Translations under genes and position numbers: made by a program
Notes under the pieces: generated by a model
The model's database searches: none
What the model was told of the DNA's origin: nothing
What the model saw: only the letters and a program-made list of their open reading frames with translations
Assembly (NCBI GenBank): GCA_947463095.1
Contig: CANHRE010000021.1
Location: forward strand, 1 to 36,332
DNA length: 36,332 nt
Reading direction: 5' to 3'
Source: Flavobacteriales bacterium
Lineage (GTDB): Bacteria; Bacteroidota; Bacteroidia; NS11-12g; UBA955
Part shown: positions 1,354-13,385 of the stretch, piece by piece
How positions within the stretch are numbered: the stretch's first letter is position 1
How the letters are laid out: the number at the start of each line of letters is the position of its first letter

Positions 1354-1827
1354 TCAACGAAAAATTTCAAGTATTTCCATCTTCATCAAACCCGCCGGCA
1401 CCTGAACTTCCACAACATCACCCACGTGTTTGCCCATCAGGGCTGATCCGATTGCAGATTTCACAGATATCTTTCCGAGCTTCAAATCTGCTTCCTTCTC
1501 ACTAACCAACATAAAAGTGAATTCCTTCTTCAGGCTGTGATTTTGAACACGTACAGAACTAAGAATGGTAACCTTACTGGTATCCACCTTTGAAACATCT
1601 ATTAGGCGCGCATTAGACAAAAGGGTTTGCAACTGTGCTATTTTCATTTCTAGCATACCCTGAGCCTCTTTTGCGGCATCATATTCAGCATTTTCACTGA
1701 GGTCCCCCTTTTCACGAGCTTCCGCGATGGCTTTGGAAATTTTTGGTCTTTCCACTGCCTTCAATTCATGGAGTTCCTGTTTAAGCTTTTCGAGCCCTTC
1801 TTTCGTTAAATAAGTTATTTCACTCAT
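1354..1827 (-). CDS. greA: Transcription elongation factor GreA
   Basis: GreA rescues backtracked RNA polymerase by stimulating transcript cleavage through the secondary channel. The 157-residue length matches the family (about 158). The N-terminal coiled coil contains the conserved tip motif GDLSENAEYDAAKE with the acidic Asp/Glu pair needed for cleavage. The C-terminal globular domain ends with the family-typical PAGLMKMEILEI. ATG at 1827 is chosen because it gives the family N-terminus (MSEITYLTKEG) and lies 8 nt after a perfect AAGGAGG. The open frame up to 1884 runs back through the porV terminator and is not coding. It is co-transcribed with the HIT gene. Its leader is unusual and is described separately. 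Confidence 0.95.
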   Translation of the reverse strand: MSEITYLTKEGLEKLKQELHELKAVERPKISKAIAEAREKGDLSENAEYDAAKEAQGMLEMKIAQLQTLLSNARLIDVSKVDTSKVTILSSVRVQNHSLKKEFTFMLVSEKEADLKLGKISVKSAIGSALMGKHVGDVVEVQVPAGLMKMEILEIFR

Positions 1828-1846: not shown

Positions 1847-1881
1847 AAAAAAAAAGTGTTGCACCGGTTAAGATGCAACAC
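1847..1881 (-). terminator. Intrinsic terminator of the porV-like gene
   Basis: Read on the minus strand, GTGTTGCA (1881-1874) pairs perfectly with TGCAACAC (1863-1856) around a 10-nt loop and is followed by nine T residues (1855-1847). This is a textbook intrinsic terminator 20 nt after the porV-like stop codon. The same hairpin would form the 5' end of the greA transcript if the -7 element at 1884-1891 is used. Confidence 0.85.
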
Positions 1882-1883
1882 CA

Positions 1884-1891
1884 CAAAGATA
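1884..1891 (-). promoter_or_regulatory. -7 promoter element of greA
   Basis: TATCTTTG on the minus strand is a perfect match to TAnnTTTG. No TTTG at the usual -33 distance was found. The predicted transcription start is about 1878-1880, at the first bases of the terminator hairpin. Confidence 0.5.
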
Positions 1892-1901
1892 AGTTTTGGA
1901 A

Positions 1902-2999
1902 TTATTCGTTTTCGTAATTCAAATCAATACGAACACCGAAGGTATGGGTACCTCCAAAAGGATTGGTAGCCCTGTAGCTATAGTCGATACCGAGGTTAGA
2001 CTTGCTATCGGGGCCAGTTTTAAATGGAACGTCCAAAGACAAGCCCGCATTTAGACCGGTGTAGGCTGTAATTCGTGTATCGTAGTTAAAAATGCCCTCC
2101 TGATAGGTGAAGCCGAGGCGACCGGAAATGAAATTATTATAGGCATATTCCATTCCGAGGCTGGTTTCGTTGTTCTGGAATGCGTGGTTGGCAAAGCCCA
2201 ATGCAAGAGTCAAACGATGCATATACAGACCCGGATCGCTATCAAGTCGGAAGTCGTATGCAGCGCTCATAGCAAGAACCGTAGGTAACTGGAAACGATC
2301 TACTCTATGTTGCAGGGTTTTGGTAAAATCACCGTTTTGTACCACAGCTTTTGTGCTTAAACCATCGCCACTGTGGCGCATATCAGGTCCAATATTCTTA
2401 ACCACCAATCCGAAGTGGATGTCGTTCTTTTTGATGGTATTGGCCGGATTGGCAGAATTTACATATTGAACGCCTGCGTCCATGCTCATTCCCAGTGCGC
2501 GTGCATCAGGAATTCCTTCACTCACTGCACGGAACATTACGCCGGCCGTGATGGTATTGAAGGTTTTACCATATCCAACGCCAAAGTTGGTCATGCTCAC
2601 ACGATAAGTACCAAGTCCGCCATAGGGCTGATCTTCGGTAGTGATGACTATAGGCGCTACCTGCCACTGCATCACGCTTACACCAAGCACACCGTCTTCG
2701 CTCACCTTTTGGGCCAGTCCGAAGCTGTTGATATTGATACCACTTCCTCCGAGCCAGCTGGTACGGGAAAATGCGGCCTCTGTCATGTTCGCTCTGGCCA
2801 ATCCTGCTATGTTCAGGTACGTAGCTTCTACGCCTTTGGCAGTGCTGACGCCTGACCATCCCCAAGCGGAATTCCGGCCCCAGCCATTGACTACCAGTTG
2901 TTGGGCACCTGCCTGACCTTGACGGTCCGGATTACCTGCCCAAAGCGCTATACCGGAACAAATTGCTGCGGCGAGGCTCCATGCTTTATTCAGATTCAT
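1902..2999 (-). CDS. PorV/PorQ-family outer membrane beta-barrel, T9SS-associated
   Basis: A 365-residue outer membrane protein of the PorV/PorQ family. Canonical PorV is the shuttle that carries T9SS cargo from the translocon to the attachment complex. Residues 1-32 look like a signal peptide. The family hallmark follows: a Gly/Ala-rich first strand (NSAWGWSGVSTAKGVEATYLNIAGLA) equivalent to GMGGA...A.YWNPAGLA. The rest shows alternating amphipathic strands, and the C-terminus (THTFGVRIDLNYE) resembles a terminal barrel strand. It lies 29 nt after the T9SS cargo gene and is followed by a strong terminator, so it is the last gene of the operon. It is probably a paralogue dedicated to the adjacent cargo rather than the housekeeping PorV, because its N-terminus differs and it lies beside a cargo gene. 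That is inference. Confidence 0.85.
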   Translation of the reverse strand: MNLNKAWSLAAAICSGIALWAGNPDRQGQAGAQQLVVNGWGRNSAWGWSGVSTAKGVEATYLNIAGLARANMTEAAFSRTSWLGGSGININSFGLAQKVSEDGVLGVSVMQWQVAPIVITTEDQPYGGLGTYRVSMTNFGVGYGKTFNTITAGVMFRAVSEGIPDARALGMSMDAGVQYVNSANPANTIKKNDIHFGLVVKNIGPDMRHSGDGLSTKAVVQNGDFTKTLQHRVDRFQLPTVLAMSAAYDFRLDSDPGLYMHRLTLALGFANHAFQNNETSLGMEYAYNNFISGRLGFTYQEGIFNYDTRITAYTGLNAGLSLDVPFKTGPDSKSNLGIDYSYRATNPFGGTHTFGVRIDLNYENE

Positions 3000-3028
3000 G
3001 TCTTTTCTTTTTTGGCTTTTAAAATCCC

Positions 3029-6000
3029 TTAATAACTATCCAAGTCCACGGAATGCATGATGCCGTACCAGCGAACCACTTTTTCTCCCAGGTCAGGGGC
3101 TTTTACATGGATGATGTATAAACCGCTGGCGATAGGAACACTTGCATCATTTTTAAGATCCCAGTCAACGAAGGTTCTGTCGTCCGATTTTTCAATTCGG
3201 CGCACCAGTGCCCCGCTCAGGTTGTAGATGCTGATTGTGCAGGTTGGCGGAAGATTCGTAATCTTCACCCGTGCATCAATAGGACTAGTCTCATACTTAC
3301 TGAATGCCCTATATGGGTTGGGTACTACATTCACCAGATCCAGTGATTTCTTGCCATGATCAGTGGTGATGGCCGGAGCTATATCCTCACTGTTAAAGGA
3401 ATACACGGGAAGATTATTGTTCACCGGCGTAGTTGAGGTATTATAGGCCGTATAAGCCTTCTTAATTCTGATGCGTATGCGCACTTCTGTTGGAGGCACA
3501 CCATCTTTCATGGAATAACCTGGAGCCAGGATGGTTGGCACTACCCACATGATTTGCGACAATACCTTCCGTTTGTCCACTGTGCCGGGAGAGGCACCTG
3601 CAGCAGAGGGCAGCAATACAGCCGAATAATCGCTGATTCCTTCTGGATATTTCTTTCCTTTCACCGTGCGCTGCACACCAAAACTGTATCCGGTTCCGAA
3701 GACATAGATAAAATGCTTACCTCCCAAGGCCGGATAAGTTCCGTTGTCGTTGAAAAAGGTAGACGTTGGATTCCAAATCATGTCCTTGCCATTCTCACCT
3801 GGCAGGTAACTGTCTTCACCGAATGCCAGATTCAGTCGTTCTCCTGTTTCCAGGTTCACCGCATAACCGGGGAAGTAGCTCTTACCCTGACCGGCACTTG
3901 GCTTCAGATCTCTGTCAAGACTGGTTCCCCAGCGCATGTTAAACTTATCCATCTGCCCATCAGTACTTGCTTTCACCTGATCATCAGCCATCTCGAGCAC
4001 GATGCATTCCGACCATTTTGAACGATCAGGAGTGATTACCAGATCAATGCTGGCCAATTCGGTCAAAGGATTATCGGAAACGGCGCTGTTTCTCCATGCC
4101 ATACCGAAGGTGTTCCTGTTTGTTGTTGCTTCCAGCCCTGCTCTTGCTGCGAGTGCATAGGGAGCAATACGACCATTCCAGATTTTCTCATAGGAGCCGT
4201 TGGGATCTAAAGGATTTCCGTTGGCGTCCTGCATATCGTGTTCATAGGGACTGAACGTAGAACCGCGACCTGCATTACCGGAGCGAATCCAGTTTTGCCA
4301 GATGTTGGCGCCTTGTGCCGCATCGTTATCGGCGATGGCAGAAAGCCATGGCCTTCCTGGATCTTCAAATTCCACACTCCAGTCAAGCAAACCATTGGCT
4401 ACATCAGCTTGTGGTTTGGTACCGGGATTATTCACCTGCTCGATTTCCACACTCAGGCCCCAATCGTTCAGGGTAACCCTGCCCACTTTGGAACTGCTGG
4501 GGTTATTGGTAAGCGCTGGCCTTCCCTGCAGGGATTCAAACTTATAGGCAAGGGTGGTATCGCTAAATACGGTATCATTGGTGGTTTTATTCACCAGCAT
4601 CCAACGGCTTGTTGATCTGATGGTATCCTGCCAACCTTGCGAAGACGGCTGGGTACGTGGTTTGGGTTCAAGAATGTACAGCTCGAAATTTGCCTTGGGC
4701 ACTTTCAGCGGATCAACAACCTTGATTTTCGCCGGACCGTTTCCGCCGAGGTATTTGGGATTCAGGCTGGAGCCGTTTGCCAGGATTTCCTTCACTGTCT
4801 CTTCGGTAAATTCCAGCACATTGCCACCGTTTCCACGACCTTCTATACGCTGAAGGGTAGGACCGCTGCCATAACCTGAATTCAGGCGGGTACCGAAATT
4901 CTCGGGGTCAGTTTTGTGGGGAATTGCTTTAAGCACCTGGATGTTTCTGCGACCAGCAAGGAATTGCTGTGGCTCTGTTGAAAGAGTGTCATCAGAAAGC
5001 ACGCCATAGGAAAGCACCATGTAATAGTAGGTTCTGAAGTCAACCAGGCCCTGGTTTGCGCTGGTAGCAAACAAATCTTTTTTGATGCTGAAAGAGTGGC
5101 GCAGGCCATTGTTCTCTCCGTTCACCTTTTCTTCAGGGATATAGGCATTCACCTTTGCATCAAATACGCGATTGATGATTTGAGCGAAGTTGTCTTTCAC
5201 ATCACACTGGAACAAGAGACGCGCTTTGTCTACATTCTCCAGATCACCTGTGTTCACTGTAGCGTCTTTCAGCTGGTAAATCATGTAACCCTGGAATTTG
5301 TAGGTAAGCTTCTTGTTTGCTTCGTTGATGTAGGCTTCGGTATACCCTTCAACTTTCTTACTGTTGGTGTTCACCAGTTTCATCACCAGTTCACCTTCCA
5401 ACTCCTGCATTTCGATATCCGGAGCATCAGGACCATCCAGAATTTTGAAGTTGTTATTAAACAGTCGTTGCGCTTTATCTGAAGCAAGTCGCAGTAGGTT
5501 TAGCGAACCTTGTGCCGCGCCGGCGCAGGGCTGACCGGCACCGCCTGAGGTGGTGCGCGCCCAAACCACACCCACTGTTACACGGTTTACTGCACCGGGA
5601 TACATGGTAAAGGGGCCTGAAGACTGCAGGAAGCGGCGATCACCGGGGCGGTTGCCGGCACTTCTTTCATCCCAGCACTGACCGGGAAAATCATTGTCTG
5701 TGCCTGCCGAGAACATATAGCGGGTGGTCTGAGAGCCACCGATGCCGTTTCCGCCAAAGGTAACGTTTTGACCACCCAGCCAACGCCCGCGAAGCAGGTT
5801 ATAAAATTCCTGCGCGAGGTCAGGGTTTCCGTTAATCGGGTTATTGTCGTTATTGTAGTACATGAAGGCGCCCATGCCCAGCTCATTTCCTGCTGAGTCG
5901 CGGGGTCCTTCAAAGAAATCTACCCCAACGGTAGGCGGGTTCAAGCCGTAGCCAAGTACACCTTCATCATCTTCATCACCATTATAGCAATAGCCCAGAG

Positions 6001-6952
6001 CCCGGTTTACATCACACCCTACGTAGTCATCGGCATAGTTACCCAAGTCGGCATCTACCCACTGACCAAAATAGGTTTGGTTGATTTTGCTGAAGCTGCG
6101 GTTGATGACTTCTGTAGAATAGAAAGTCATGTTGTTCACCTCATCATTGGTGGCGAAACCAAAGGCGGTGGTATGCAGTTCTATACCAATGGGAACACCC
6201 TGGGTTTCGCTGTGGATGTTACCCTTATCGTTATAGCAGAACCACAGCATCATATCGGGCTGGCGGTCTACACCGTTTTCGCTGATAGGGCGGCGGTTAT
6301 CCAGTACGGGGTGTTCACCCTGAAAAGGTTCATAAATACCGTTTCCGTTGATATCCTTAAAAGGAGCCAGCGATTTGGGTTCTGTTGAGCTGGTAGCATA
6401 GGGCCGGTTCAGGCCTGCGGGCCATTCGGTGATGCCTGCTCCGGGGTTGATCCAGCTATTGGCTTCAGCCTCTTCCATTTCTGTTCTGGAAACCTTCCAA
6501 ATGCGGTCATAGGCTTTACAGCGTTGTGGGTCGGTACCTGCAGTAGTGGTATCCAGCGGACCCGGCCAGAAGTCGCTGCCGCGCTGCCGATAAGTCATCG
6601 CCGCCAGTTTCAGGTTTCCACCATCGTCCAAACCACCGATCCACAGGGCTCCGCTGAACATTGAATGCTTGCGAACGGCATTGGCATCGGTAACCTTCGG
6701 TACTTCGTACTTCGGGTTATTCAGATCCCACCACATATCCCCTCCATTGAGGATTTTGGTTCTTACGTTGTTGATATCCAGGTCGGCACTCTGAGTGGCA
6801 GGTTCGCAGGTATTGGCGAACATGTTCATACGCCTGTCCTGGGTTACCGGCTTGGAGCGCGGATTCAGGTTCGTAACGGGTCTAGCCTGAAGGGCTGCCA
6901 GGGTTACGAGCAACAGCGTTGAGCTGATGATAGATTTTCCTCTTTGTTTCAT
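3029..6952 (-). CDS. Large secreted protein with T9SS C-terminal sorting domain, function unknown
   Basis: A 1307-residue exported protein. ATG at 6952 gives a clean signal peptide (MKQRGKSII..., hydrophobic to about residue 21). The track-style GTG start two codons earlier is less likely. The N-terminal third carries motifs recurrent in a Bacteroidota family I recognise only as conserved-hypothetical: ALWIGGLDDGGNL, FWPGPLD, DINGNGIYEPFQGEHP (possible Ca-binding loop), and DLGNYADDYVGCD. No hydrolase active site was found. The middle is long and beta-rich. The last roughly 95 residues form a type A sorting domain: VVPNPYRAF, SIYNLSGALVRRI, and ASGLYIIHVKAPDLGEKVVRW. The protein should cross the outer membrane by T9SS and be anchored on the surface or released. 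It lies between a TonB receptor (45 nt) and a PorV-like barrel (29 nt) on the same strand. Confidence 0.88.
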   Translation of the reverse strand: MKQRGKSIISSTLLLVTLAALQARPVTNLNPRSKPVTQDRRMNMFANTCEPATQSADLDINNVRTKILNGGDMWWDLNNPKYEVPKVTDANAVRKHSMFSGALWIGGLDDGGNLKLAAMTYRQRGSDFWPGPLDTTTAGTDPQRCKAYDRIWKVSRTEMEEAEANSWINPGAGITEWPAGLNRPYATSSTEPKSLAPFKDINGNGIYEPFQGEHPVLDNRRPISENGVDRQPDMMLWFCYNDKGNIHSETQGVPIGIELHTTAFGFATNDEVNNMTFYSTEVINRSFSKINQTYFGQWVDADLGNYADDYVGCDVNRALGYCYNGDEDDEGVLGYGLNPPTVGVDFFEGPRDSAGNELGMGAFMYYNNDNNPINGNPDLAQEFYNLLRGRWLGGQNVTFGGNGIGGSQTTRYMFSAGTDNDFPGQCWDERSAGNRPGDRRFLQSSGPFTMYPGAVNRVTVGVVWARTTSGGAGQPCAGAAQGSLNLLRLASDKAQRLFNNNFKILDGPDAPDIEMQELEGELVMKLVNTNSKKVEGYTEAYINEANKKLTYKFQGYMIYQLKDATVNTGDLENVDKARLLFQCDVKDNFAQIINRVFDAKVNAYIPEEKVNGENNGLRHSFSIKKDLFATSANQGLVDFRTYYYMVLSYGVLSDDTLSTEPQQFLAGRRNIQVLKAIPHKTDPENFGTRLNSGYGSGPTLQRIEGRGNGGNVLEFTEETVKEILANGSSLNPKYLGGNGPAKIKVVDPLKVPKANFELYILEPKPRTQPSSQGWQDTIRSTSRWMLVNKTTNDTVFSDTTLAYKFESLQGRPALTNNPSSSKVGRVTLNDWGLSVEIEQVNNPGTKPQADVANGLLDWSVEFEDPGRPWLSAIADNDAAQGANIWQNWIRSGNAGRGSTFSPYEHDMQDANGNPLDPNGSYEKIWNGRIAPYALAARAGLEATTNRNTFGMAWRNSAVSDNPLTELASIDLVITPDRSKWSECIVLEMADDQVKASTDGQMDKFNMRWGTSLDRDLKPSAGQGKSYFPGYAVNLETGERLNLAFGEDSYLPGENGKDMIWNPTSTFFNDNGTYPALGGKHFIYVFGTGYSFGVQRTVKGKKYPEGISDYSAVLLPSAAGASPGTVDKRKVLSQIMWVVPTILAPGYSMKDGVPPTEVRIRIRIKKAYTAYNTSTTPVNNNLPVYSFNSEDIAPAITTDHGKKSLDLVNVVPNPYRAFSKYETSPIDARVKITNLPPTCTISIYNLSGALVRRIEKSDDRTFVDWDLKNDASVPIASGLYIIHVKAPDLGEKVVRWYGIMHSVDLDSY

Positions 6953-6997
6953 AATCACATTTCTTTTAAAGACCTAAGATGAAATTGCTGTAATGAA

Positions 6998-9900
6998 TTA
7001 GTTGATATTAAAGCGGATGCCGAGGCGGATGGTTCTGGGAGACGCATAGTTTCCGCCCTGGGTATTCAGCAACGCACGATACAGGTCAACATAGCTTTGG
7101 GCATTGATTTGACGCTGTATGGCCAATTGACCTTGGGGTGAGTTCAGGAAGCCGTCGTCTGTTGGCAATCCGGTGTAGCGGTAAACGCTTACAATGTTCC
7201 TGCCATTCAACGCATTTTCTACCCACAGGTATGCATTAGCCATAAGGGGACGTTTGCCAGTTCCGCGGTTGATTTCAAATGATTTGCTCAGGTTGCCATT
7301 GATGGTAAATTGCCAGGGCAAGCGCGCTCCGAAAGGCACGCCTTTAATCTGGGCGCGGTCAACAGCACCAATCTGAACAGGCTGCGTGGTTGGGGTAAAG
7401 GGTGCCCCGCTGATGGCGAAGAACATAAGATTCAGGTTGGTAAACTTGAATATTTCCTTACCGCTGATCCGTGGACCATTGTACAGATTCTTGCCGTATT
7501 TGTCTTTGCCACCTTCCCATCCGATGTTGAATACGCCCTTAATGGCATGACGAATATCCAGTTCACCCAAAGGAATCATGGTACGCAGGTTAGGCTGGTT
7601 GCTGGCAATAAGGGCCTGTTGAGAGTTAATGTTGGAACCTGTACCATCTGCAAACTGCAGGGTGTAGTTGGCGGTCAGGCTTACCGGGCCAAGCTGGGTA
7701 AGGATGTACTGCACGCGGAAGCTCTTCACGGTGCTGAAATCGATGTTTCGATAAGTTGAGTAGGTTACGGGATAACCTTGGTTGATCTGATACAAACCGA
7801 AGTCACCACGGATTTCACTGTAGCTGGCGGTAATTTCAATACCACTGGTTTTGCCGATTTGCTGTTTGAAACCAACTTCATAATCTGTTTTAATACGAGG
7901 CTTCAAGTCACCATTGGAGATCACACTTCCCTGACGGTTTTTCAGGTAGTACAATTCGTCAATGGTCAGGAACGAAGCGCCGGCATTGGGCCTCTGAGCC
8001 AATACATCATAGCTGGCATAGAATAATTTGGTTCTGTCAATAGGAAACTGGAACCAGATACGGGGCAGCATGTTGATGGCAGGAGTAAAGTCCTTGAAAG
8101 AAGCGGGCGTAATTTGTTGGTTGTTCGGATCCACCAAATACGGAGCGATGCGTCCATTACTGGTTTGGTTCGCCAGGATTTCGGGGTTAGTTACTTCGCC
8201 GCCATTGGCATCATACCACTGAACGCCATCGCGGTAGCCGATGATGCGTGTGGGGGAATTCATGTCGTTCACATAAACCTTATATGTTCCTTTGATGTTG
8301 TCGGGATGATTTACATTCAACCCATTCAGTTCACTCACTTCAGCAGCAGTTTTCATGGGGTACAGGCTGTATGGGTCATCAAGGACGCGCTGGTTGGCAT
8401 CATAGCGCTCCATGCGCAAGCCCACACGAAGTATCAGATCTTTATAGGCGAACTGATCCTGAACCCAAGCGGCCATATAAACTGGTTGGAATGCACCGAT
8501 GGTTCGGTTGTCGCGGTCGAAGATAAACTTATCGATGGCCGGACGACCGCGAACCTTATTACCCAGGTGGTCATATCCGAAGTAGGAAACGTATCCGTTT
8601 CCATTGTTGAGCAATTCATCGGCATTGAACATATTCAGATTGAACATGGACGGGCTCAATGCGTTAATGTCTATAAAGCTGGTTTCGTTGATGGCTTTAC
8701 CATAAACATCCTTAGCCCCCTGAGCAATCAATTTTTCGCGAAGGTTTTTGTCAAATGTGCTCTGCTCATTGCTGTTGATGAGGCGGTTGTAGCGCACGGT
8801 ATCCTGAAACACGCCCCACTGGTCATAAGAAAGGATGGGGTTGTTCACATCCAGTTCGGAGATGTGTTTGTTGGCAAGTTGTCGCATTAGAATCCAGAGG
8901 CCGTTGGCACCAAGTCCATAGCCGCGCTGAATTTCCTGCTCGTAGGTCAAACCGAACTGCACATCATGGGGAGTGCGCAGCTGGCCTTCAGCTTCTTTGC
9001 CTTTCACCTGGAATTCACCCATGGCGAAAACAGTGTAGCGTTCAGCCTGGCTCTTGCTCCAGTTGGCAGTTACGGTACCGGGTGTTGACCACAGAGAATA
9101 CACGTTTGGAGGGTTAAAGCCGTTCAACAGACCCTGATTGTTGATGATGGTATTGTCGTTGCGGATTTTCCCGCCCAAACCGGCCACATAATCATACAGG
9201 TTTCTGGTGTAATTGGCGCGAAGGGGATTCAGTCCGCTGGGGTTAAAGGTAACAAGGGTATCGGTGAACCCAATTTGTTCCCAGTAGTCACGGATATAAA
9301 CGATGTTACCGAATTGATCTTTCACCCTACGTGGTTGACGGTTGGGGTTGCCGCTCGCATCTCCATGAGAATAGGCGAATGCCTCGGTAGGATAGTGGGT
9401 AAAGGCGCCCAGATTCCCGTAATCGAAGTAGTTGTCCAAATGGTTGGCATCGCGGGTTTTTGAGGCATTGCTCTGGTAGTCGAAACGGATGGTATAGAAA
9501 GCATTCTGGATGGCAGAGCCTTCAGAGTTTTTCAATTTTTGGGTGAACCTGGCATAGGTACGCACAGTATTCGCGTCGGTACGGGGATTTAGCCCGTAGT
9601 TCATGATGGAATTGGTGGCAGAATAAGCGCTGGAACCGAAGTAGCTTCCAAAAACGGTGAAGTCTGTTTGCTTGTTGAACTGGTATACCAGTTTTCCTTG
9701 CAGGGCCGCGGTAGTGGCACCCGAGTTGGGTCTCGCCTTGAGCAATTCCATATCGCTATCGCGCAGGAAGTTGCCGGCGTGCACCAAGCCATTGGGGGTT
9801 GCCACCAGAGGGCGTTCTTCTATTTCGCGCAACTTGTCTTCTTTCACCACATAAACACCGGTTACCATAGGCGCGCGGTCTTTGGTATAGTTTCCGTTTC

Positions 9901-10741
9901 CTGAAACGGAGAAGCCGAGGCGAACGAATTCTTTTGATTTATTTCCTTTGTTGGCAATCAGCAAGGGACCTGAAAGGTAACCTTCCACCTGATTGTAACC
10001 GTAGGGGTCCAGTTGTTGAGAGGTGATGGCTTCAAGGCTGCCGATGTAATTCCGGGAAATACCACGCGTAGTTACACTGATGGCACCACCGGTAAAGTCA
10101 CCGTACTGGGCGGGAACACCACCCTGAATCACTGTTACCTGCTGTTGCCCTGCGAGGATGGAGGTTAGGTTACCGATAACGCGAACACCGTCCACATAAT
10201 AAGCTGTACCGTCGCTTCGCGAGCCTCGGAAAGAGATACCCTGCGAGGTGTTTACCACACCACCGGCGCTGGCAGTAACGATGTTTGCCACGCTGCGGCT
10301 GTTCATCTTAACAAGGTCATCGCGGGTAACAACAGCGGTATTTCCCGTGCGGTCAATCACCTTTTTCTGGGACCTACCTCGAATCACCAGGGTTTTCAGG
10401 TCGCTCGCCTTTGGAAACAGGCGAACGTTCTCTTCCTGGGGAACGTTTTCAACGATTTTCACAGACACAGAGTCTGTATTCATTTCGTTGAACGAGGTAA
10501 TCAGGGTGTAATTCCCCGGATCAATGGTTTTAAAGTAGTAGCGACCGCCATTTCCGCTGTTAGCCTTTCCGGCTTCCACCCCATCACGCACCAGCACAAG
10601 TGTGGCACCCACGATGGGCTGTTTGGTTTCAGCGTTGGTCACCACACCGCGCAGCTCCCCGTAATTGGTCTGTGCCTGAAGGCCGAAGGACATGCCTATA
10701 AAGGCTGTGGCGGCAAGCAGTGAACGTAGTGTTTTATTCAT
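6998..10741 (-). CDS. TonB-dependent outer membrane receptor with N-terminal carboxypeptidase-regulatory domain
   Basis: A 1247-residue TonB-dependent transporter. Residues 1-23 are a signal peptide ending LQAQ. Residues about 26-110 are a CarboxypepD_reg-like beta-sandwich (GELRGVVTNAETKQPIVGATL). The plug follows at about 112-225, with VVTRDDLVKMNSRSVANIV, SQGISFRGSRSDGTAYYVDGVRV and QGGVPAQYGDFTGGAISVTTRG. The remainder is a large barrel ending in IRLGIRFNIN with the aromatic/hydrophobic C-terminal pattern. No SusD partner lies next to it, so it is not a standard SusCD pair. Instead it heads the cargo/PorV operon. The substrate is unknown. A weak promoter-like TTTG-N21-TAAAACTG lies just upstream, but transcription may also enter from the dehydrogenase gene 47 nt away. 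Confidence 0.92.
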   Translation of the reverse strand: MNKTLRSLLAATAFIGMSFGLQAQTNYGELRGVVTNAETKQPIVGATLVLVRDGVEAGKANSGNGGRYYFKTIDPGNYTLITSFNEMNTDSVSVKIVENVPQEENVRLFPKASDLKTLVIRGRSQKKVIDRTGNTAVVTRDDLVKMNSRSVANIVTASAGGVVNTSQGISFRGSRSDGTAYYVDGVRVIGNLTSILAGQQQVTVIQGGVPAQYGDFTGGAISVTTRGISRNYIGSLEAITSQQLDPYGYNQVEGYLSGPLLIANKGNKSKEFVRLGFSVSGNGNYTKDRAPMVTGVYVVKEDKLREIEERPLVATPNGLVHAGNFLRDSDMELLKARPNSGATTAALQGKLVYQFNKQTDFTVFGSYFGSSAYSATNSIMNYGLNPRTDANTVRTYARFTQKLKNSEGSAIQNAFYTIRFDYQSNASKTRDANHLDNYFDYGNLGAFTHYPTEAFAYSHGDASGNPNRQPRRVKDQFGNIVYIRDYWEQIGFTDTLVTFNPSGLNPLRANYTRNLYDYVAGLGGKIRNDNTIINNQGLLNGFNPPNVYSLWSTPGTVTANWSKSQAERYTVFAMGEFQVKGKEAEGQLRTPHDVQFGLTYEQEIQRGYGLGANGLWILMRQLANKHISELDVNNPILSYDQWGVFQDTVRYNRLINSNEQSTFDKNLREKLIAQGAKDVYGKAINETSFIDINALSPSMFNLNMFNADELLNNGNGYVSYFGYDHLGNKVRGRPAIDKFIFDRDNRTIGAFQPVYMAAWVQDQFAYKDLILRVGLRMERYDANQRVLDDPYSLYPMKTAAEVSELNGLNVNHPDNIKGTYKVYVNDMNSPTRIIGYRDGVQWYDANGGEVTNPEILANQTSNGRIAPYLVDPNNQQITPASFKDFTPAINMLPRIWFQFPIDRTKLFYASYDVLAQRPNAGASFLTIDELYYLKNRQGSVISNGDLKPRIKTDYEVGFKQQIGKTSGIEITASYSEIRGDFGLYQINQGYPVTYSTYRNIDFSTVKSFRVQYILTQLGPVSLTANYTLQFADGTGSNINSQQALIASNQPNLRTMIPLGELDIRHAIKGVFNIGWEGGKDKYGKNLYNGPRISGKEIFKFTNLNLMFFAISGAPFTPTTQPVQIGAVDRAQIKGVPFGARLPWQFTINGNLSKSFEINRGTGKRPLMANAYLWVENALNGRNIVSVYRYTGLPTDDGFLNSPQGQLAIQRQINAQSYVDLYRALLNTQGGNYASPRTIRLGIRFNIN

Positions 10742-10788
10742 ACTCTGATTATCTCTTTTACAGTTTTAGAGCAAGGGCGCAAATTCCC

Positions 10789-11766
10789 TCAAATTTTGTA
10801 ATATTCCAATAGTGTTGGCAGCATTTGAGATTCTCGATTGAACCAACGGATAATTCGAGCAGCGAGTACTCCCGAAATACGCTCGTATGATTCGGTGCTC
10901 CATCCGCCCACATGCGGGGTAAAGAGCACCTGATCCATGCTGAGCAGCAGGTCAAACCATTTTTTATCATCGGCGGCAAGTGCACTGGGGGGTTCTTTTT
11001 CAAGCACATCAGCTGCAAAGCCTCTGAGCATGCCACTTTGAAGGGCTTCGGCTACATGCTTTGTACGCACTACCGGTCCGCGGCTCAGGTTTAACAGGTA
11101 CAACGGTTTCCGGAATCTGCGCAGGTAATCGGCATCCACCATAAAGCGTGTTTCGTTGGTGAGAGGAACATGCAGGCTCAGTACATCGGCCTCCCGAAAC
11201 AGCTCATCCATATCGGTTTGGCGCACATGGGCTACCTGCTCTATCGTCTTGTAGGGGTCATAGGCCAGCACCTGCACACCAAAGCCGTATAATCGTCCGG
11301 CAAAGGCGCTGCCGGTATATCCGAATCCTAGGATGCCCACGGTTTTACCTTTCAACTCGGCACCACGGTTTCCTTCGCGGTCCCAAATACCACTGCGCAC
11401 CTCACGGTCGCCTTTGGCAATATTGGCCAGGAGGCTCAACAGCATTCCGAGCGTTTGCTCGCCAACGGCGTCGCTGTTGGCACCACCGGCATGCACAATA
11501 CCAACACCATGATGAGTACAATCTTTTTCGTTGATGTTGTCAGTGCCGGCGCCAGCGCGGGCTATCAGGCGCAAACGGGGCGCTGCTGAAAGAAATGCAT
11601 CGTCAACATACAACTTACTGCGCAGCACCAGCACCATACAATCAGCAGCCAGTGCGCGGGCTTCATCGCTGCTGCAATCAGGACGGTACAACGGCTCAAA
11701 ACCTGCGGCTTCGAGTGCTTCCATCAGCAGCGGATGAACATCATCTATGATCAATACCTTGTTCAT
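10789..11766 (-). CDS. D-isomer-specific 2-hydroxyacid dehydrogenase (phosphoglycerate dehydrogenase-like)
   Basis: A 325-residue NAD-dependent dehydrogenase of the D-2-hydroxyacid family. The Rossmann motif GFGYTG is at residues 147-152. The catalytic triad is visible: Arg229 in NLSRGPVV, Glu258 in VLEKEPP and His285 in TPHVGGWS. The Arg-Glu distance of 29 equals that of E. coli SerA. The length fits the short forms that lack the regulatory ACT domain of full SerA. The N-terminus ARAGAGTDNINEKDC matches the 3-phosphoglycerate dehydrogenase branch better than formate or glycerate dehydrogenase, so serine synthesis is plausible. No serC or serB is adjacent, so I leave the symbol empty. It lies 47 nt upstream of the TonB receptor gene on the same strand. 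Confidence 0.9.
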   Translation of the reverse strand: MNKVLIIDDVHPLLMEALEAAGFEPLYRPDCSSDEARALAADCMVLVLRSKLYVDDAFLSAAPRLRLIARAGAGTDNINEKDCTHHGVGIVHAGGANSDAVGEQTLGMLLSLLANIAKGDREVRSGIWDREGNRGAELKGKTVGILGFGYTGSAFAGRLYGFGVQVLAYDPYKTIEQVAHVRQTDMDELFREADVLSLHVPLTNETRFMVDADYLRRFRKPLYLLNLSRGPVVRTKHVAEALQSGMLRGFAADVLEKEPPSALAADDKKWFDLLLSMDQVLFTPHVGGWSTESYERISGVLAARIIRWFNRESQMLPTLLEYYKI

Positions 11767-11792
11767 GAGACCGTTTTTTCGGTTTGTTGATT

Positions 11793-11800
11793 CGAAGTTA
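11793..11800 (-). promoter_or_regulatory. Candidate -7 element for the 2-hydroxyacid dehydrogenase gene
   Basis: TAACTTCG on the minus strand matches TAnnTTTG with one mismatch and lies 26 nt before the ATG at 11766. No -33 TTTG was found at a normal distance. The same TTCG variant recurs upstream of two other genes in this window. Confidence 0.35.
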
Positions 11801-11830
11801 ACAGCCTAAACCCGCCCTTGTATGCGGTCT

Positions 11831-11876
11831 TTGAACAACGAGGTGAGCGGATTGAACAACGGGCGCTGACTCACCT
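11831..11876. repeat. Direct repeat nested in an inverted repeat at the biotin carboxylase 3' end
   Basis: TTGAACAACG occurs at 11831-11840 and 11852-11861, exactly 21 bp apart. AGGTGAG (11841-11847) and CTCACCT (11870-11876) form a 7-bp inverted repeat that overlaps the biotin carboxylase stop codon. No T-run follows on the minus strand, so it is not a standard terminator. It could be a 3' processing structure or an operator. Confidence 0.35.
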
Positions 11877-13385
11877 TTTACGTTCACGACGGCTTTTCCA
11901 GTTGCTTTCTGCCGCCGGAACCTGGGCTGTTGCGTTTTGAGGTGCGTTGGTTGCAGCGCGGCGGCTCCAGGCGAATGCAGCAGCGATGGCGGCAGCCGCT
12001 TCTTCTTCTGCTTCGAAGGCGTGATGGTCGAGGTATTCCGGCTTGAAATGCCGACCGATAAAGCCGGTGTCAAAGTTGCCGGAAACAAAAGCTTCATGCT
12101 TCATCACAAAAGCGCCAAAGGCCAGGGTGCTGGCAATGCCAGACAGGCGGTATTCTGAAATGGCCCGCAGCATGCGCCCCAGGGCTTCCTCGCGGCTACT
12201 ACCCCACACAATGAGTTTGGCAATCATGTTGTCGTAGTAAATGGGAATCTCCATGCCGGCTTCCATGGCATCGTCCACACGGATACCGGGGCCTTTAGGT
12301 ATAGCGTATTCGGTAATGATGCCTATATCCGGCAGGAAGTTGTTGGCCGGATCTTCGGCGCAAACCCGCAGTTCTATGGCATGTCCGTTGATCTTCAGGT
12401 CATCCTGGGTGAAACTGAGTGGCAGACCAGCCGCCACGCGGATTTGTTCCTGCACCAGGTCAATACCGGTAATCATTTCGGTAACAGGATGCTCCACCTG
12501 CAGGCGGGTATTCATTTCCAGAAAATAGAAATTCCCGTCGTTGCCCACCAGAAATTCCACGGTTCCGGCACCGGTATAGTTACAGGCGCGGGCTACATTC
12601 ACGGCGGCTGTACCCATCCTGTGGCGCAATGCCTCATCCAGCGCGGTGCTGGGAGCCTCTTCCACCAATTTCTGGTGGCGGCGTTGTATAGAACATTCGC
12701 GCTCAAACAGATGGCATATGTTGCCTTGCTGGTCGGCAATAATCTGAAATTCGATGTGGCGTGGCCCGCCGACATACTTCTCAATAAATACCGAGTCGTC
12801 GCCGAAGGCGCTGCGCGCTTCACTCTGCGCCCTGCCTAGTTCGTCTATAAAATCTTCGGCGCGTTCAACGATACGCATTCCCTTTCCACCACCGCCGGCA
12901 CTGGCTTTTACCAATACTGGAAAGCCAATTTGACGGGCAATGTTCAGGGCTGATTCGGGGTCGTTGATGGCCTCGTTAATGCCTGGCACCAAGGGTACAC
13001 CGAACTTCTCAACGGCCTGCTTGGCGCCGATTTTACTGCCCATCACCTCCATGGCTTCCGGAGAGGGGCCAATGAGTGAAATTCCTGCTGTTCTGAGGGC
13101 GCGAGCAAAAGAGGCATTTTCCGACAAAAAGCCGTAGCCAGGATGAACGGCCTGCGCACCTGTTTGTTTGCACACCTCGATGATGGCGTCACCCCTGAGG
13201 TAGCTTTGGTTGCTTGGCCCCGGGCCGATGCAAAAAGCCTCGTCGGCATAGCGCACATGAAGGGCATTGCGGTCGGCTTCGCTGTACACTGCCACCGTGC
13301 GTATGCCCATCTCGCGGCAGGCACGCATTACACGAATGGCAATCTCTCCGCGGTTTGCAACCAGTATCTTGTTAAACAGGGCCAC
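11871..13385 (-). CDS. accC: Biotin carboxylase subunit of acetyl-/acyl-CoA carboxylase
   Basis: Catalyses ATP- and bicarbonate-dependent carboxylation of biotin on a carrier protein, the first half-reaction of acetyl- or propionyl-CoA carboxylase. The domains are in the standard order: N-terminal biotin carboxylase domain (FNKILVANRGEIAIR), ATP-grasp with glycine loop KASAGGGGKGM at about 160-170, and the catalytic segment EMNTRLQVEHPVTE with Glu290, Asn292, Arg294 and Glu298. The start is taken as GTG at 13385, 11 nt after the upstream stop, because it gives the family N-terminus (504 aa). An in-frame ATG at 13445 would overlap the upstream gene by 49 nt and add 20 non-family residues. The C-terminus extends about 50 residues beyond E. 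coli AccC and is Ala- and then Arg-rich. The carrier and carboxyltransferase genes are not in the window. Confidence 0.92.
   Translation of the reverse strand: MALFNKILVANRGEIAIRVMRACREMGIRTVAVYSEADRNALHVRYADEAFCIGPGPSNQSYLRGDAIIEVCKQTGAQAVHPGYGFLSENASFARALRTAGISLIGPSPEAMEVMGSKIGAKQAVEKFGVPLVPGINEAINDPESALNIARQIGFPVLVKASAGGGGKGMRIVERAEDFIDELGRAQSEARSAFGDDSVFIEKYVGGPRHIEFQIIADQQGNICHLFERECSIQRRHQKLVEEAPSTALDEALRHRMGTAAVNVARACNYTGAGTVEFLVGNDGNFYFLEMNTRLQVEHPVTEMITGIDLVQEQIRVAAGLPLSFTQDDLKINGHAIELRVCAEDPANNFLPDIGIITEYAIPKGPGIRVDDAMEAGMEIPIYYDNMIAKLIVWGSSREEALGRMLRAISEYRLSGIASTLAFGAFVMKHEAFVSGNFDTGFIGRHFKPEYLDHHAFEAEEEAAAAIAAAFAWSRRAATNAPQNATAQVPAAESNWKSRRERKR

Follow-up and report, generated by a model that had tools for sequence, protein, structure and literature searches.

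The C-terminal sorting domains (CTDs) of PorU and PorZ in P. gingivalis are not removed: PorV and PorQ keep them bound, and a review proposes that a CTD is shielded from cleavage by its cognate PorV-like barrel (PMC10202324). In F. johnsoniae, proteins with type B CTDs depend on cognate PorP/SprF shuttles whose genes lie immediately 3' of their own, which is the closest tested precedent for the gene arrangement described here (PMC12618676). In the published alginate utilisation locus of R. marinus, tonB is followed by hypA, with a T9SS type A CTD, and then by hypB, of the PorV/PorQ family; in the available portion of its description hypA and hypB are termed hypothetical, and the three genes are not treated as a unit (PMC9530828). 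Within the open-access literature, excluding subscription journals and preprints, no paper was found in which the three genes are regarded as one system.

We analyzed a stretch of 36,332 nucleotides (the window) from an uncultured aquatic bacterium. It encodes a TonB-dependent receptor, a T9SS-type surface protein (hereafter, cargo) and a PorV/PorQ-family barrel in consecutive genes, termed the triad. The features of the locus are as follows.

10789-11766, minus strand: 2-hydroxyacid dehydrogenase (PF02826, 167 bits), conserved upstream neighbour, no working part of the triad
6998-10741, minus strand: TonB-dependent receptor, 1247 aa, with a CarboxypepD_reg N-terminal domain and a plug (Pfam, above cut-off)
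3029-6958, minus strand: T9SS-type surface protein (cargo), 1309 aa (orthologues across the order, alignment)
5441-6808, minus strand: predicted N-terminal beta-supersandwich of the cargo, approximately residues 51-506 (AlphaFold2 model, VIA, conservation profile)
3044-3364, minus strand: predicted C-terminal sorting domain of the cargo, approximately residues 1199-1305, with the tail LDLDS(Y/F) (VIA, alignment)
1902-2999, minus strand: PorV/PorQ-family barrel of the triad clade, 365 aa (NF033709, profile against PDB, tree)
1884-1891, minus strand: Bacteroidota -7-like box TATCTTTG, immediately preceding the hairpin
1855-1882, minus strand: hairpin with an 11-pair stem followed by eight T, between the barrel gene and greA
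1354-1827, minus strand: greA, conserved downstream neighbour, no working part of the triad

All three triad genes are on the minus strand at the positions given in a preliminary description of this DNA, which had them running in one direction. The cargo and barrel genes are separated by 29 nt. The gap between the receptor and cargo genes is 39 nt if the cargo starts with GTG at 6958, and 45 nt, as described previously, if it starts with ATG at 6952, which is more likely. That description also stated that SusD is absent, and indeed no SusD gene adjoins the triad and neither the cargo nor the neighbouring genes match SusD. An Rfam search across the locus gave no match.

The triad is conserved throughout the window's order, represented by 108 genomes from two families and 24 genera. 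Orthologues of the cargo were found in 107 of these genomes, nearly always as one full-length copy, those of the barrel in 104, and those of the receptor in 102; the near-complete genomes contain the cargo and the barrel in 64/64 cases each and the receptor in 62/64. In a further 20 genomes of the order, the full locus always has the gene order dehydrogenase, receptor, cargo, barrel, greA and HIT, the dehydrogenase being 5' of the receptor in 20/20 loci. The position of greA and the greA-HIT neighbourhood are also kept in six loci from other orders of the class. In some genera, a second receptor paralogue (36% identity) is located 5' of the dehydrogenase (L049 11933-15631, L050 12251-15922).

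Separate occurrence of the three families had been named in the preliminary description as an outcome that would speak against it. In the comparison of 61 loci, which represent both families of the window's order and some 30 families from elsewhere, complete triads in the order receptor, cargo, barrel were found in 59, and the two exceptions are contig ends. The 40 loci from outside the order were picked by the best barrel score alone, ignoring their neighbours; 38 of them are complete triads with the same order and strand, and two end at contig ends. As triads were the source of the barrel profile, this sample favours the triad clade. Among 395 evenly sampled genomes, the cargo profile matches 191, the receptor profile 173 and the barrel profile 220, a part of the barrel matches being weak cross-hits to PorV and PorQ. 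Within the same class but outside the order, strong matches to all three profiles come from an identical set of seven genomes (G144, G148, G152, G171, G265, G269 and G285), and the triad is absent from most sampled Bacteroidia.

The 80 named loci of cargo relatives include 65 complete triads, 12 loci cut by contig ends, one with a broken reading frame (L202) and two solitary second cargos (L249 8278-12141, L253 8344-12018). The genomes with these lone copies also have a full triad, and the solitary cargos are possibly orphans that share a barrel. The named relatives are mostly uncultured, many of them freshwater bacteria, and include records of Crocinitomicaceae, Cryomorphaceae and other Flavobacteriales. 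Several deviations and recurrent neighbours were observed. Locus L186 is rearranged: the barrel comes directly after the receptor, and several genes upstream lies the one for the CTD protein. Three families have a fusion of a multihaem cytochrome c with TPR encoded directly 3' of the triad barrel (L099 1-1920, L119 2-1916, L122 10605-12500), and proteins with a GWxTD domain occupy the same place in L095, L116 and L120 (about 10600-12030).

The barrel belongs to the PorV/PorQ family (NF033709, 102.5 bits at a cut-off of 90), and a profile of 21 barrels matches PorV in PDB (6h3i_F, E 2.7e-10). Its scores are far below the cut-offs of the equivalog models: 31.8 bits for PorV (cut-off 250), 31.1 for PorQ (220) and 16.3 for PorV2 (325). 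The same genome encodes PorV directly downstream of PorU (NF033710, 481 bits), and PorQ (290.8 bits) and PorV2 (389.4 bits) at other sites. Since PorV, PorQ and PorV2 are encoded elsewhere, the triad barrel is a fourth member of the family. A tree of 110 barrels places PorV, PorQ and PorV2 in groups of their own (SH-aLRT support 100, 99 and 97), and all triad barrels fall into one further group (97), within which the window's type has support of 99. A tree of 64 rows that includes R. marinus recovers the triad group with support of only 6 and the window's type with 100. Judging from the sequences, a single origin of all triad barrels is likely; it is not settled because of this low value.

Grouping of the barrel with the housekeeping PorV was the other outcome that had been set against the preliminary description. 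The barrel falls outside the PorV clade, and together with the separate genes for PorV, PorQ and PorV2 in the same genome this led us to reject its identification as the housekeeping PorV. At the gene level, the proposal that the barrel is specific to its cargo thus has good support, given that the families co-occur in fixed order and the barrel is outside the PorV clade. The PorP family has no match in the barrel, and type B CTDs have none in the cargo. SprA is present in all 12 genomes tested, including that of the window (2331 bits there). In two different genomes, two tandem PorV-family barrels come after a short protein whose T9SS CTD is weak, with no receptor (L171 8291-10374, L191 8356-10322).

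The receptor matches PF13620 (38.9 bits), PF13715 (35.8) and PF07715 (28.8), all above cut-off. It has both the CarboxypepD_reg domain and the plug that characterize the receptors of SusC-SusD pairs, and the receptors of triads retain these domains. It matches none of the NCBIfam models, and therefore has no SusC match.

Cargo sequences from different genera share 48-66% identity. A Pfam scan gave no match for it, and we rejected its assignment to SusD or to any known Pfam family; neither its sequence nor its profile finds a relative in PDB. The first 50 residues, read by eye, contain no Cys, so that the cargo, unlike SusD, is apparently not a lipoprotein. The structure was modeled as two pieces, with pLDDT of 91.9 for the N piece (AlphaFold2) and 89.2 for the C piece. 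The N piece is closest to the N-domain of dextran dextrinase (VIA Z 18.4 over 253 residues), and its predicted fold resembles the N-terminal beta-supersandwich domains of GH94, GH116, GH15 and GH65-type enzymes, with Z of 14-18 across some 250 residues and no (alpha/alpha)6 catalytic domain after it. A predicted supersandwich fold shared with GH enzymes demonstrates neither function nor sugar binding. A strongly conserved stretch, D.DLG...DD..G.D...LG..YN, is located at residues 302-327 according to the conservation profile. A stand-alone relative of the N-module (503 aa, 30% identity over residues 105-466) is encoded in L008 (1165-2676, G000:C34), and similar proteins occur in many genomes of the order.

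The T9SS sorting domain that the preliminary description assigned to the cargo falls just below the curated cut-offs (TIGR04183, 21.1 of 23 bits; PF18962, 13.7 of 27); the assignment holds at the level of the predicted fold, a C-terminal Ig-like beta-sandwich of the CTD type seen in type A T9SS proteins. The VIA Z for this domain is 11.8 with the CTD of PorZ (30% identity), 9.6 with PorU, 8.7 with mirolase, 7.6 with NucA and 7.5 with RemA, and most of the triad cargos scanned match the PorZ family model at their C-terminal end. The modeled CTD is thus nearest to PorZ both in fold and in profile. In the alignment, the last CTD strand is followed by the tail LDLDS(Y/F), which is near-invariant within the order and absent from the paralogous cargo type.

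Paralogous triads are abundant in some genomes. The census comprised every PorV-family barrel of finished genomes, collected with the general NF033709 model and hence free of the triad-profile bias. Triads account for 12/17 barrels in G459, 10/16 in G137 and 7/11 in R. marinus DSM 4252, or 29 of the 44 barrels in these three genomes. We also compared the paralogous triads of two genomes, each with ten or more: the similarities of receptor, CTD and barrel correlate at r 0.88, 0.93 and 0.89, a value reached in 0/10000 permutations. By this measure of sequence similarity, receptor, CTD and barrel have duplicated and diverged as units. Co-duplication means linked inheritance, not contact, and an operon alone would give the same result. 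The term module, used in the preliminary description, is too modest for a phylum-wide gene set that was duplicated again and again.

Many paralogous triads have shorter cargos (600-900 aa) that have only the CTD in common with the window cargo; among those scanned, Pfam revealed no catalytic or binding family. One R. marinus DSM 4252 contig (C2) is 100% identical to the plasmid pRMAR01 (NC_013502.1), whose triad is publicly annotated as a TonB-dependent receptor, a hypothetical protein and a PorV/PorQ family protein; a plasmid search with the window cargo gave no match. The alginate locus of R. marinus (L297; cargo gene at 7042-9345, barrel gene at 9369-10424) matches the triad profiles, with PL6 and PL17 lyases encoded downstream; its cargo has the CTD in common with the window cargo, and the N-terminal module is not shared. 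The barrel of this locus is followed by a protein with weak similarity to FadL. Among the further genes found near triads are those for CBM20 proteins, a solute-binding protein, FG-GAP/ASPIC proteins and multihaem cytochrome-TPR proteins. Triad-rich genomes have 0-6 copies of SusD, compared with 66 in G269, which yielded one triad; the sole SusD match in the window's genome is on a different contig (C54). Being a correlation over 21 genomes, the scarcity of SusD was rejected as proof of replacement. Taken together, the alginate locus, the neighbours and the scarcity of SusD favour nutrient capture by the paralogous triads.

The strong terminator reported after the barrel gene corresponds to the hairpin and T-run, 20-47 nt past the barrel stop codon; its role as a plain end of the three-gene unit is weakened. 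Among 21 genomes of the order (that of the window and those of L038-L057), the hairpin is present in 20, and the -7 box (TAnnTTTG) adjoins it in 18, against a shuffled mean of 0.04. As this promoter-like box is directly in front of the hairpin, the hairpin may belong to the greA leader, and the interpretation of a plain operon terminator is weakened accordingly. It could be a leader or attenuator of greA rather than a terminator of the triad. A precedent for such an element is GraL, the greA leader of E. coli.

We are inclined to think that the three genes constitute one outer-membrane capture-and-import unit, in which a barrel-held, CTD-retaining cargo feeds the receptor without SusD. The cargo would be made with a Sec signal peptide and cross the outer membrane via the SprA translocon. 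Its CTD would then be taken over by the neighbouring PorV-type barrel instead of the housekeeping PorV, and would stay uncleaved, as in PorU-PorV and PorZ-PorQ. The barrel would thus extract its own cargo and, the CTD being kept, hold it at the surface. The large N-terminal module might bind a substrate or present it to the TonB-dependent receptor encoded upstream, in the role of the SusD lipoprotein. From the genomic data we infer that the proteins pair physically, that the CTD is retained and that the cargo serves as a lid or capture protein, and likewise what its substrate would be. The preliminary description, which suggested surface uptake or adhesion, is partly borne out: uptake is supported for the paralogous triad of the R. 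marinus alginate locus (PMC9530828), and this support does not extend to the window triad itself; nothing was found in favour of adhesion.

Three observations are less easily reconciled with the capture-and-import unit, namely the extra cargo copies without partners in L249 and L253, the nearly constant single copy of the window triad throughout the order, and the lack of the window cargo's N-terminal module in the alginate-locus cargo. Near-universal presence in the order, usually in a single copy and at a fixed chromosomal place, would better suit an envelope housekeeping assembly than the capture of one nutrient. The barrel would then be a platform for a large extracellular scaffold, similar to BamG that holds BamH (PMC12578637), and the receptor-like protein would be structural or signalling and not an importer. 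Cargo identity of 48-66% across genera, high for a surface protein, is also consistent with such an assembly, which we nevertheless consider rather unlikely, as the paralogous triads are multi-copy, with one located among alginate lyases, the receptors retain the plug and CarboxypepD_reg domains, and most sampled Bacteroidia have no triad. The window's own near-universal triad may still have such a housekeeping role. It is less probable still that the barrel is only a private shuttle, taking the cargo from SprA to PorU, where the CTD would be removed, so that the cargo would be shed or attached to LPS instead of staying on the barrel. PorV does this for ordinary cargos (PMC10202324), and PorU is encoded beside PorV in the window's genome; however, the cargo CTD is closest in predicted fold and profile to PorZ, itself uncleaved, and an ordinary PorU product would make one barrel per cargo unnecessary.

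PorV is a member of the FadL superfamily (PMC12578637), and the barrel might on that ground be a channel of the FadL type that admits small solutes, hydrophobic or otherwise, and is unrelated to the CTD, with the three genes merely sharing a regulon. The FadL-like protein after the alginate-locus barrel would agree with this; we find the explanation very improbable, because the barrel matches the PorV/PorQ models and not Toluene_X, and stays directly behind the CTD gene phylum-wide, like porV behind porU. The explanation by chance neighbourhood, or by an ordinary operon whose outer-membrane genes are unrelated, gains something from the fact that all three products are outer-membrane proteins by family. 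Its probability is negligible in view of 59/61 loci, 29/44 barrels in the three finished genomes and the co-duplication, and chance adjacency is ruled out by the phylum-wide census.

A broader reading of the capture-and-import unit, which in our estimate may equally hold or fail, is that triads are a second TonB-dependent import architecture beside SusCD, with a capture protein that T9SS delivers and that a PorV-type barrel of its own anchors via the uncleaved CTD. Since each triad carries its own barrel, the barrel subfamily would then be a set of cargo-specific anchors. If so, Bacteroidota and sister lineages (e.g. Rhodothermota) have an import architecture that was apparently never named, and the presence of 10-17 PorV-family genes in some genomes is explained. 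The hypothesis that cognate PorV-like barrels decide whether the T9SS signal is kept or cut (PMC10202324) also becomes testable, and the cultured R. marinus with its seven triads offers natural test pairs.

The triad is similar to several described systems in some of its parts. Like PorU-PorV and PorZ-PorQ, it combines a T9SS-CTD surface protein with a PorV-family barrel, and porU directly upstream of porV reproduces the order of cargo and barrel; the uncleaved CTD is known in these pairs and inferred for the triad. In contrast to them, the triad barrel is outside the PorV, PorQ and PorV2 clades, a TonB receptor gene is added, and the cargo has no sortase or beta-propeller domains. The type B CTD and PorP/SprF pairs of F. 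johnsoniae, where pairing is experimental, likewise have a dedicated barrel gene directly 3' of the cargo gene, but no receptor gene; in the triad, the CTD is type A-like or PorZ-like and the barrel is of the PorV family. SusC-SusD resembles the triad in having a TonB-dependent receptor with CarboxypepD_reg beside a large surface partner, and a paralogous triad occupies its place in the alginate locus, whereas the triad partner is neither SusD nor a lipoprotein and carries a T9SS CTD, with a barrel of its own. The R. marinus alginate locus, with tonB, hypA and hypB in a row (PMC9530828), matches the triad profiles and differs from the window triad in that its cargo is without the window's N-terminal module. 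The parts of the triad are thus of known kinds, and their combination is new.
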